Shown: piece by piece, positions 29,360 through 55,535 of the stretch
Layout of the letters: every line of letters begins with the position of its first letter
How positions within the stretch are numbered: the first letter of the stretch is position 1
NCBI RefSeq assembly: GCF_900103785.1
Contig: NZ_FNHE01000006.1
Location: 124,001-188,000, forward strand
Length of the DNA: 64,000 nt
Direction: 5' to 3'
From: Geodermatophilus siccatus
Lineage (GTDB): Bacteria; Actinomycetota; Actinomycetes; Mycobacteriales; Geodermatophilaceae
Position numbers and translations under genes: made by a program
The notes under the pieces: model-generated
What the model saw: the letters and a program-made list of their open reading frames with translations, nothing else
Told to the model about the DNA's origin: nothing
The model's database searches: none

Positions 29360-30586
29360 ATGACCGCCCGCACCCCCGCCGCCGCCCGCCTCCGGGCCGA
29401 CGCGTGCCCCGGCGCGCTGCAGACCCACGCCGCCGCCGACGGTGCGCTGGCCCGGGTGCGGGTCCCCGGCGGCCTGCTGACCGGCGGCCAGCTGCGGGCG
29501 CTCGCGGCCGCCGCGCGCGACCTCGGCGACGGGGCGCTGGAGCTCACCAGCCGGGGCAACGTGCAGCTGCGCGGCCTGGCCGGCGGCGCGGAGGCCGAGC
29601 TCGGCGACCGGCTCGCCGCCGTCGGCCTGCTGCCCAGCGCGTCGCACGAGCGGGTGCGCAACGTGCTGGCCAGCGCACTGACCGGCTGGGCCGGCGGGCA
29701 CGTCGACGTCCGGCCGTGGGTGCGTGCGCTGGACGCCGGGATCTGCGCCGACCCCGCGCTCGCCGCGCTGCCGGGCCGGTACCTCGCCACGCTCGACGAC
29801 GGCCGCGGCGACGTGGCCGGCCTCGGTGGGGACGTCGGCCTGCTCGCCCTCTCCCCCGCCGAGGTCGCCCTGACCCTGGCCGGCACCGACTCCGGGTGGC
29901 GCGCCCACCCGGACGACGCGGTCGCGCTCGCCCTCGCCGCCACCCGTGCGTTCCTCGACGAGCGCGCCGCCCAGGGCGGCACCTGCTGGCGGCTCGCGGA
30001 GTTGGCCGGCGGCCCCGAGCGAGTGGCCGGCAGGATCACACCGTCGTCCTCCGGACGACACCGCGGCCACGTGCCGTCCCCCCGCTGCGCGGAGCCCCTG
30101 CCGTCCCTCCTCGGGGGAGCCTCCGGCTCCCCACTCGTCGGGACCCCCGTGGGCACCACCCGGCAGGACGACGGACGGACCGCCCTCGCCGCCGTCGTCC
30201 CGCTCGGCCGGCTCTCCGCGGAGCAGGCCGACCTGCTGGCCCGCCTCGCCGACGAGGTGCAGCTGACGCCGTGGCGCAGCGTCGTCGTCCCCGGCCTGGC
30301 CGAGCACGCCGTCGACGACGCGGCCGCCGCCCTGCACCGGACCGGCATGGTGCTCGACGCGGACAGCGCCTGGACCAGGGTGACCGCCTGCGCGGGCCGG
30401 CCGGGGTGCGCGAAGTCGCTGGCCGACGTCCGCGCCGACGCCGCCCGGGCCGTGGCGGACGGCACACTGCCGGCGGGCGGTGCCCGCCAGCACTGGGCCG
30501 GGTGCGAGCGCCGCTGCGGCCGTCCCCGCGGCGAGGTCGTCGACGTGGTGGCGACCGGGACCGGATACCGAGTCGGGTGGAGCTGA
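29360..30586 (+). CDS. cobG: Precorrin-3B synthase, carrying a repeat-derived insert
   Basis: A 408-residue ferredoxin-nitrite/sulfite-reductase-like monooxygenase that uses O2 to make precorrin-3B. The NiRSiR half-domain [14 protein letters not shown] and the Fe-S cysteines [10 protein letters not shown]...[11 protein letters not shown] are intact. It is about 45 residues longer than expected; the excess maps to residues ~228-272 ([15 protein letters not shown] onward), encoded by a terminal-inverted-repeat element, at the junction of the two homologous halves. It overlaps cobH (TGATG). Presence of cobG marks the aerobic pathway. Confidence 0.92.
30041..30174. mobile_element. MITE-like element inserted in frame in cobG
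   Basis: It is bounded by 10-bp perfect inverted repeats CCGTCGTCCT (30041-30050) and AGGACGACGG (30165-30174). It holds an internal hairpin GGGGAGCC-TCC-GGCTCCCC. Its first ~50 bases recur with few changes at 39242-39292. The reading frame stays open through it, giving a Ser/Pro/Gly-rich insert. No transposase is encoded; a clear target duplication was not seen. Confidence 0.7.
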
Positions 30587-37402: not shown

Positions 37403-38494
37403 GTGACCGAGGCGGGGCGCGAGGGCAGCACGGGGCTGCGCTACGGCTGGACGACGGGCGCCTGCGCCACCGCGGCCACCGCCGCCGCCTACACCGCGCT
37501 GCTGACCGGTGAGTTCCCCGACCCGGTGCAGATCGACCTGCCCCATGACAAGCACCCGTCGTTCGCGCTGGCCACCGAACGGCTCGAGGACGGCGCCGCG
37601 ACCGTGGGCGTGGTCAAGGACGCCGGCGACGACCCCGACGTCACCCACGGCGCGCTGGTCTCGGCACGGGTGAGCCAGGGCGAGCCGGGCAGCGGGGTCC
37701 TCTTCCGGGCCGGCGAGGGCGTCGGGACGGTCACCAAGCCCGGGCTCCCGCTCCCGGTGGGCGAGCCGGCGATCAACCCGATGCCCCGGCAGTTCATCCG
37801 CGCGCACGTGGCCGCGGTCGCCGCGCGGCACGGCGGCACCGGCGACGTCCTCGTCGAGGTCTCGGTGGAGAACGGGGCGGAGCTGGCCCGCAGGACGTGG
37901 AACCCGCGGCTGGGCATCCTCGGCGGGCTGTCGATCCTGGGGACGACGGGCGTCGTCGTCCCCTACTCGTGCTCGTCGTGGATCGACTCGATCCGCCGCG
38001 GCATCGACGTCGCGCGGGCCGCGGGCCACCAGCACGTCGCCGGGTGCACCGGCTCGACCAGCGAGCGGGTGGTCACCGAGCTGTACGGGCTGCCGGAGGA
38101 CGCGCTGCTCGACATGGGCGACTTCGCCGGCGCGGTGCTGAAGTACCTGCGCCGCCACCCGGTGCCCCGGCTGACGGTCGCCGGCGGGATCGGCAAGCTG
38201 GCCAAGCTCGCCGACGGCCACCTCGACCTGCACTCGGGCCGCTCGCAGGTGTCGACGGAGTCGCTGGCCGCGATGGTCCGCGACGCCGGCGGGGCGCCCG
38301 AGCTGGTCGAGGGCGTGCGCGGCGCGAACACCGCGCTCGACGCGCTGCAGCAGTGCCGGGCGGCCGGACTGCCGCTGGGCGACCTGGTGGCCGCCGGCGC
38401 CCGCAGGACGGCGCTCGGCGTGCTCCGCGGGGCGCCGGTCGAGGTCGACGTGGTGGTGATCGACCGGGCCGGCACCGTGGTCGGCCGGGCCTAA
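37403..38494 (+). CDS. cbiD: Cobalt-precorrin-5B (C1)-methyltransferase CbiD
   Basis: A 363-residue methyltransferase with LRYGWTTGACATAATAAAYTAL, AGDDPDVTHGALV, FRAGEGVGTVTKPGLPLPVGEPAINP, RTWNPRLGILGGLSILGTTG and HVAGCTGSTSERVV, all hallmark CbiD segments. Although named for the anaerobic route, it coexists here with CobG and CobN and no cobF is present, so it should catalyse C1 methylation with deacylation in a mixed pathway. Start GTG 37403 gives the usual N-terminus; GTG 37388 is an alternative. It ends overlapping cobM tail to tail by 4 bases. Confidence 0.93.
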   Translation: MTEAGREGSTGLRYGWTTGACATAATAAAYTALLTGEFPDPVQIDLPHDKHPSFALATERLEDGAATVGVVKDAGDDPDVTHGALVSARVSQGEPGSGVLFRAGEGVGTVTKPGLPLPVGEPAINPMPRQFIRAHVAAVAARHGGTGDVLVEVSVENGAELARRTWNPRLGILGGLSILGTTGVVVPYSCSSWIDSIRRGIDVARAAGHQHVAGCTGSTSERVVTELYGLPEDALLDMGDFAGAVLKYLRRHPVPRLTVAGGIGKLAKLADGHLDLHSGRSQVSTESLAAMVRDAGGAPELVEGVRGANTALDALQQCRAAGLPLGDLVAAGARRTALGVLRGAPVEVDVVVIDRAGTVVGRA

Positions 38495-39234
38495 CCCCGG
38501 CATCGGGCCGTGGAGTACAGGTGGCTGTCGGGGAACTCCGCCGCCGCGAGCACCGGGCCCACGACCACCACCGCCGTCCGCCGCACGCCCGCCGCCTCGA
38601 CCTGCCCGGCGATGTCGGCCAGCGTGCCGCGCAGCACCAGCTCGTCGTCCCGGCTGGCGCGGGCGACCACGGCGACCGGGCCGTCGTCCCCGTAGTGCTC
38701 GGCCAGCTCGGGGGCGAGCTCGGCGATGCGCTGGACGGCGAGGTGCAGCACCAGCGTCGCGCCGGTGGCCGCGTAGGCGGCGAGCTCCTCGCCGGGCGGC
38801 ATCGGGGTGGAGCGGGCGCTGGTCCGGGTGAGGACGACGGTCTGCCCCACCCCCGGCACGGTCAGCTCCCGCTTGAGCGACGCGGCCGCAGCGGCGAACG
38901 CCGGGACGCCGGGCACGACCTCGTAGGGCACCCCGGCGGCGTCGAGCCGGCGCATCTGCTCGGCCACGGCGCTGTAGATCGACGGGTCGCCGGAGTGCAG
39001 CCGGGCCACGTCCAGGCCGGCCTCGTGCGCGGCCACCAGCTCGGCGGTGATCCGGTCGAGGTCGAGGTCGGCGGTGTCGACCAGCCGGGCGCCGGCCGGG
39101 GCGGTGTCGAGCAGCTCGCGCGGCACCAGCGCACCGGCGTAGAGGCAGACCGGCGCCGACGCGATGAGCCGCGCCGCCCGCAGCGTGACCAGGTCCGCCG
39201 CCCCGGGCCCGGCGCCGATGAAGTACACGGTCAC
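38491..39234 (-). CDS. cobM: Precorrin-4 C11-methyltransferase
   Basis: A 247-residue SAM-dependent methyltransferase: VYFIGAGPGAADLVTLRAARL, CLYAGALVPRELL, RLHSGDPSIYSAVAEQMRRL, VVPGVPAFAAAAASLKRELT. GTG 39234 gives the normal short start; in-frame sequence upstream belongs to repeat DNA. It follows cobL on the same strand with 172 bases of repeats between them. Confidence 0.94.
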   Translation of the reverse strand: MTVYFIGAGPGAADLVTLRAARLIASAPVCLYAGALVPRELLDTAPAGARLVDTADLDLDRITAELVAAHEAGLDVARLHSGDPSIYSAVAEQMRRLDAAGVPYEVVPGVPAFAAAAASLKRELTVPGVGQTVVLTRTSARSTPMPPGEELAAYAATGATLVLHLAVQRIAELAPELAEHYGDDGPVAVVARASRDDELVLRGTLADIAGQVEAAGVRRTAVVVVGPVLAAAEFPDSHLYSTARCRG

Positions 39235-39241
39235 GACGACA

Positions 39242-39292
39242 CCGCCGTCCTCCCGGACGACACCGCGGCCAGGTGCCGTCCCCCCGTTGCGC
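39242..39292. repeat. Partial copy of the cobG-inserted element
   Basis: CCGCCGTCCTCCCGGACGAC then ACCGCGGCCAGGTGCCGTC and CCCCCGTTGCGC match the left ~50 bases of the cobG insert (30041-30090) with about five differences. The right terminal repeat is not found; copy G of the dispersed 3' element follows. Confidence 0.75.
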
Positions 39293-39317
39293 TGAGCGCG
39301 TCCGGCCCCTCGTCGGT

Positions 39318-39376
39318 GGGAGGACCCCCCGCCCCCCACCGCTCGCGAGCTCGCAGCGGGCCCCTGCAGGGGGCCT
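39318..39376. repeat. Dispersed GC-rich 3'-end element, copy G
   Basis: GGGAGGACCCCCCGCCCCCC...GCTCGCGAGCTCGCAGCGGGCCCCTGCAGGGGG is the family core in reverse, 30 bases past the cobL stop. Confidence 0.8.
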
Positions 39377-55320: not shown

Positions 55321-55379
55321 AGTGCCGGCCGCTTTCCACCCCGTCAAGAGAGCAGGCCGGGGTGTCATCCGGCGGGGCG

Positions 55380-55535
55380 GTCGTGGTCTGATGACGCGGC
55401 CACAGCGACGGCAGTGGAGGAAGCCCGGTGGAACTCCGGCGCGGTCCCGCCACTGTGACCCGGCAGCCGCCGGGGAGTCAGGAACTCCCGTCGTCGCCTC
55501 CTGCCACCTCCGGGCGTGGACACCCGGGGAGAGGA
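55380..55535 (+). ncRNA. Cobalamin riboswitch
   Basis: The conserved core GGAAGCCCGGTGGAACTCCG, then GCGCGGTCCCGCCACTGTGA (55418-55458), followed by GGGGAGTCAGGAACTCCCGTC (B12-box-type, 55472-55492), is the AdoCbl/MeCbl riboswitch signature. A downstream ACCTCCGGGCGTGGACACCCGGGGAG segment can pair, placing the ribosome-binding GGGGAGAGGA under switch control. It should repress chelatase, CobO/CobB and the cobalt importer when cobalamin is plentiful. Confidence 0.9.

Follow-up and report, generated by a model that had tools for sequence, protein, structure and literature searches.

A dispersed, structured Geodermatophilaceae repeat that sits mostly at TGA stop codons lies in frame within the CobG linker of Geodermatophilus siccatus

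The cobG gene of Geodermatophilus siccatus runs through a segment rich in short inverted pairs, which a sequence-only reading took for a MITE-type element domesticated as a protein linker. Is this segment a mobile element, and does its peptide now serve the enzyme? We addressed the question in a window of 64,000 nucleotides (the whole stretch of DNA analyzed, to which all coordinates refer) and by comparison with related genomes, and found a structured repeat family that is biased toward stop codons, differs in presence between species at the same sites, and is retained in frame in several proteins. The cobG frame is open through the segment, as had been claimed, and the 408-residue product scored 237.7 bits against NCBIfam TIGR02435, above the equivalog cut-off of 234.8. 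Solved nitrite reductases align to CobG residues 30-141 and, in the second half, within 263-395, so that the segment does lie between the two NiR/SiR halves. The statement that all Fe-S cysteines are kept holds for the residues themselves, with Cys344, Cys350, Cys382, and Cys386 invariant among 39 aligned CobGs; that these four hold the Fe-S cluster is our assumption. The features of the locus, and of a second copy in the window, are as follows.

29360..30586, plus strand: cobG (precorrin-3B synthase), 408 aa, with the element in frame
30043..30059, plus strand: hairpin 1, GTCGTCC-TCC-GGACGAC, which covaries between copies
30060..30079, plus strand: conserved core ACCGCGGCCACGTGCCGTCC; the consensus forms a short second helix here
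30103..30144, plus strand: second hairpin region, GTCCC...GGGAC around GGGGAGCC-TCC-GGCTCCCC
30044..30145, plus strand: codons 229-262, element-encoded, 34 residues
39238..39343, plus strand: second copy in the window, 70.2 bits, antisense to both flanking minus-strand tetrapyrrole methylase genes

The repeat unit in cobG spans 30037-30145, where a covariance model of the family matched over its full length with 103.2 bits. These limits replace the 134 bp (30041-30174) proposed before, the 3′ part of which is not generally common to the copies: in a DNA search of the genome, all but one of 66 other matches ended by base 116 of the 134-base segment. A 10-bp inverted pair, CCGTCGTCCT/AGGACGACGG (30041-30050/30165-30174), had been taken for the ends of the element. 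The pair exists, but neither arm is a terminal repeat. On the left, bases 30043-30049, which make up most of the arm, pair with 30053-30059 to form hairpin 1. The right arm (30165..30174, plus strand) consists of host cobG codons for Gln-Asp-Asp-Gly, at which siblings read Q-x-DG; the 10-bp ends are therefore a chance match between host sequence and an arm of a hairpin. Pairs of CGTCGTCC/GGACGACG recur several times nearby, which puts this match at chance level. The internal hairpin GGGGAGCC/GGCTCCCC (30114-30121/30125-30132) is present as described.

To define the unit, we aligned 44 of 45 listed matches, leaving out one at a contig end. Its length was about 110 bp in these copies, and likewise in 37 leading units. 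Many copies have the left edge TGACAYYG, and hairpin 1 has seven pairs and a loop of 3-4 nt, with no U-run after it in the unit alignment. The core, CACCGCGGCCA[C/G]GTGCCGTCC, is nearly invariant; it is followed by a variable stretch with frequent GCTGAGCC and then by a second GC-rich hairpin. At a number of sites further units of ∼85-100 bp, lacking hairpin 1, stand in tandem. No inverted ends shared by the 44 copies were seen by eye.

The covariance model served to align 79 copies, in which the predicted structure was examined by covariation. Standard pairs made up 97% of pair cells, a fraction that dropped to 31-53% in slid controls, and changes on both sides of a pair were found in 109 cells, compared to a shuffled mean of 34.6 (0 of 500 shuffles as high). 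In hairpin 1, five of the seven pairs had both-side changes. Two of five covariation measures were weak, the number of pairs with both-side changes being reached in 51/500 shuffles and that of further pair types in 14/500. The alignment was fitted to the structure and so is biased toward it, but hairpin 1 stood out in an unfitted alignment too. Rfam at gathering thresholds held no family for the element, and the window contained no tRNA. The sole Rfam match in the window was a cobalamin riboswitch at 55377-55507 on the plus strand (33.6 bits; gathering score, 31.5).

A whole-genome search for further copies, set beforehand as a check, returned many. At the DNA level there were 67 matches, including the segment itself (242 bits), and 65 of the 66 others had E < 1, the best with E values down to 6.6e-29; this count is a lower bound, with 40 of 209 candidates scored. 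The covariance model gave at least 91 matches at E ≤ 0.01 in the G. siccatus genome (150 of 18,712 candidates scored, hence again a lower bound) and at least 40 in a second, single-contig Geodermatophilus genome, G014 (150 candidates scored), the shortest of which, at 67-75 nt, are doubtful. With a single copy as probe, relatives were detected in 97 of 112 Geodermatophilaceae genomes and in 9 of 12 genera; with the window copy, in 19/19 genomes of the genus, next to one weak match among 12 genomes of other families. We did not find a description of this repeat in the open-licence PMC literature, among the matches listed. As a class name, MITE-type fits in part: the unit is short, multi-copy, mobile-looking, and without a transposase gene inside, but terminal inverted repeats were not found at its ends.

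The left part of the segment does recur where the sequence-only reading placed it, beside what it named cobL/cobM (39242-39292), and the copy there extends over 39238-39343. The minus-strand methylase open reading frame at 38491-39339 is open through this copy, which makes its start codon uncertain; an N-terminal extension from the antisense element is possible.

The placement of the copies relative to genes was scored with a simple codon-usage script as gene finder, trained on the window. The counts draw on 56 of the 91 G. siccatus matches, after removal of 28 that scored under 58.8 bits, six units lying downstream in tandem, and one located at a contig end, and on 26 of the 40 in G014. A stop codon of a sense gene lay within −8 to +15 nt of the left edge in 31/56 and 16/26 copies, respectively; when 15,600 positions were drawn at random in the same loci, the share was 1.03%. 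Conversely, copies inside genes were rare (3/56 and 1/26, versus 73% of random placements), while 16/56 and 7/26, the second window copy among them, fell outside all position classes. The stops at the edge were TGA in 46 of 47 cases; in the loci and the window as a whole, TGA ended 168 of 213 genes (p = 2e-4). At the commonest offset (19/47) the gene ends on the TGA that the left edge of the element itself provides, and hairpin 1 starts ∼4 nt past it. Eight further genes, six in G. siccatus and two in G014, run by the gene model into the unit and end in its 5′ half, one of them with a tail of 14 residues.

The strong sense orientation directly behind stops, and a conserved, covarying hairpin so close to them, are also what speaks for a host 3′-UTR or terminator or mRNA-stabilising module that is copied for use behind stops, the CobG copy being a stray. 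This idea is compatible with the explanation that we favor below. It was confronted with the 3′ end of a crp-type regulator gene that is present in 26/26 genomes of the genus. At this gene end, a match to the element with E ≤ 0.01 was present at some point of the stretch in 16 of 26 loci, and the 23 loci compared had, depending on the species, the unit right at the stop, hairpin 1 alone or half of that hairpin, units on the opposite strand, or nothing. A module required at a given gene end fits poorly with its absence, truncation, or reversal in relatives. Moreover, several of these sites have, by eye, another strong hairpin adjoining the unit, so the unit may be dispensable as a terminator there. 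The lack of a U-run after hairpin 1, and copies within genes and in antisense orientation, likewise count against the module, which we regard as an unlikely competitor. The crp-type pattern of presence and absence is what a mobile repeat would leave as its trace; as the comparison is between species, losses may have contributed as well.

We further analyzed the history of the unit within CobG. A cobG match was found in 25 of 26 genomes of the genus (one split over two contigs), and four of these 25 carry the unit inside CobG. It is in sense orientation in G. siccatus, G. chilensis, and strain DF01-2, whose junctions correspond, and in antisense orientation in G. africanus, where the linker holds the antisense copy together with a partial second unit and stays free of stop codons. 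The alignment of CobG with relatives that had been proposed as a check covered 63 CobG loci of named genomes; the element was confined to three of them, all Geodermatophilus, with no match in the other 60 at E ≤ 1e-3. The earlier figure of about 45 added residues (228-272) is too high: the element contributes ∼34 (229-262), and the net gain of the linker over several siblings is 13-19. In the three sense carriers, the stretch encoding WRLAEL...PLGRL is 228, 210, and 222 nt long, versus 171 nt in 5 of 10 other genes shown. Since ∼34 element residues yielded a net gain of only 13-19, some 17 residues of the old linker have gone, and the event was not a clean insertion.

In a free CobG tree, built with the linker removed and poorly resolved, the three sense carriers were ungrouped and two insert-free species nested among carriers, which amounts to at least two changes. 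Neither the three sense carriers as a clade (p-AU 0.52) nor all four insert-bearing species as a clade (p-AU 0.61) was rejected, and constraining the tree to the latter improved it by 4.1 log units over the free tree. Most simply, a single insertion in one ancestor of G. siccatus, G. chilensis, and DF01-2 would account for the sense copies. For G. africanus we lean toward an independent insertion because its copy is longer, with the partial second unit; alternatively, a single ancestral insertion may have been inverted there later.

Linker length varies across CobGs. In Planomonospora the linker is enlarged by unrelated Thr/Pro/Ala-rich or repeated sequence, a sign of a permissive site. The linker of Geodermatophilus sp. 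DSM 45219 contains a different, AT-richer stretch with TTTATCGCGATATTGG.

The element is in frame in at least three proteins: CobG, UreF, and a metallophosphoesterase. In UreF (PF01730) the unit is in sense orientation and in the same frame as in CobG in 5 of the 14 genomes of the genus in which ureF was matched, and six empty alleles were aligned. The ureF insert of one of these species (G032) is longer than that of the other four by 13 codons inside the element and is still in frame. In the metallophosphoesterase (PF00149) the unit is antisense in 10 of 28 loci. Two of the ten have scores of no more than 15-18 bits, and in some the unit is at the margin of the gene match; the sequences of 11 of 15 selected loci were looked at.

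Could the element peptide now be under selection as a linker of CobG, and of UreF? The near-identical core SSSGRHRG[QH]VP[SF]P, read in the same frame in CobG of three species and UreF of five, suggests so at first sight. In the 12 core codons, neither the three CobG genes nor the five UreF genes differ synonymously from one another, where pS in the flanks is ∼0.2-0.4. When 36-nt windows were compared, none of 171 was as low in UreF, but 12 of 321 were in CobG, so that for cobG alone core invariance does not support selection. Because the core bases are near-invariant in non-coding copies too, we attribute the invariance to gene conversion or to a constraint acting on the nucleic acid (DNA or RNA), and do not take it as proof of selection on the protein. 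The right half of the insert, on few changes, has a pN/pS of ∼0.5-0.7, above the flanks rather than below them, and other CobGs vary in linker length. Domestication, as put forward in the sequence-only reading, is thus unproven and, in our judgment, improbable; a tolerated linker suffices, and tolerance rather than benefit would explain the CobG insert.

As to how the repeat moves, transposition would be its means of spread, and TGA presumably its target. By eye, no target-site duplication was seen in the filled and empty alignments of cobG and ureF, the cobG junctions being obscured by the lost linker. A classical REP element moved by a RAYT/IS200-type transposase would likewise be palindromic, high-copy, and extragenic, as REPs are (PMC2817692). 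A search for the Pfam domain Y1_Tnp (RAYT, IS200/IS605) at E ≤ 0.001 was negative in all 112 family genomes, with a control search positive in 5 of 14 genomes; at that sensitivity the result argues against such a mover in the genome itself and in the family, and we give the idea very little weight. That the segment is ordinary GC-rich coding sequence with chance palindromes, as the plentiful short inverted pairs of the region might suggest, is refuted by the E values of the genomic copies and by orthologues without the stretch.

Taken together, these data make it likely that the CobG segment belongs, as a single unit, to a dispersed and structured Geodermatophilaceae repeat that is non-autonomous, sits mainly at TGA stops, and is tolerated in frame in CobG. 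We propose that the repeat spreads as a non-autonomous unit, coming to lie mainly at TGA stops in sense orientation to the upstream gene, and that its left edge, TGACAYYG leading into hairpin 1, provides that gene's stop or adjoins it. Of the frames of the unit, one begins with this TGA, a second is read by genes for ∼50 nt up to an internal TGA, and the third can be open throughout. A copy landing in the open frame within a tolerant linker would then survive as extra Ser/Pro/Gly-rich residues. In CobG, this would have occurred in one ancestor of the three sense carriers, with the loss of ∼17 old linker residues. More tentatively, and at somewhat less than even chances, the repeat may be a family-wide actinobacterial mobile element moved by a non-Y1 enzyme that recognizes TGA stops; insertion at gene ends would be nearly harmless, and occasional internal hits could become protein linkers. 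If this is true, a stop-codon-targeting repeat would give rise to protein-coding palindromes outside the Rickettsiales.

How does the repeat compare with known systems? The Rickettsia palindromic elements (RPEs) were reportedly described by Ogata et al. in 2000 and 2002. According to PMC10969869, the RPE is a palindromic repeat of ∼150 bp found in frame, often, in unrelated metabolic proteins. The Geodermatophilaceae repeat is likewise in frame in unrelated proteins (CobG, UreF, and the metallophosphoesterase), but it belongs to another phylum, and the likeness is one of description. Nearly half of the first-reported RPEs lie in ORFs by that account, whereas few of the copies used here are inside genes and most are at or near stops. 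The sequence-only reading had called an event of this kind rarely documented. For actinobacteria that description may hold, but not more widely, since RPEs are found in proteins often and QMITEs sometimes (PMC10969869 and PMC5896051). In Coxiella burnetii, by the same sources, QMITE2 is mostly in 3′ UTRs, and QMITEs sometimes form a C-terminal extension or an in-frame insert. Placement at 3′ gene ends with an occasional extension or in-frame insert is shared with our repeat; QMITE2, however, is classed there as a MITE, and the defining terminal repeats were not found in the Geodermatophilaceae unit.

Compared with REP/BIME elements and their RAYTs, the repeat is similarly palindromic, abundant, and mostly extragenic, but no Y1 transposase was found in the 112 genomes, and the unit, at ∼110 bp, has more than one hairpin. 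The REPs among the table rows listed in PMC2817692 start with GTAG-, GTGG-, or TGTGG-type sequence, and the Geodermatophilaceae unit does not. The mycobacterial MIRU, according to PMC12548453, is apparently mobile and inserts at gene boundaries, which makes it, like our repeat, an actinobacterial and apparently mobile gene-boundary element. By the same account, MIRUs insert at start codons and contain an internal ORF that is coupled, whereas the Geodermatophilaceae repeat lies at the stop of the upstream gene; this comparison, too, is by description.

MIRUs insert at DTGA sites and form tandem arrays. A TGA rule of this kind also describes the edge stops of the Geodermatophilaceae repeat, with the single exception among 47. 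Compared by description rather than by sequence, the repeat thus resembles RPE, QMITE2, and MIRU in a combination of their traits. It may be regarded as an actinobacterial counterpart to the Rickettsia palindromic elements for which named species offer both filled and empty alleles, and it makes testable whether repeats become a source of linkers, by what route they reach stop codons, and which activity mobilizes them if there is no RAYT. It also carries a warning that linkers and C-termini of Geodermatophilaceae proteins may be derived from a repeat.
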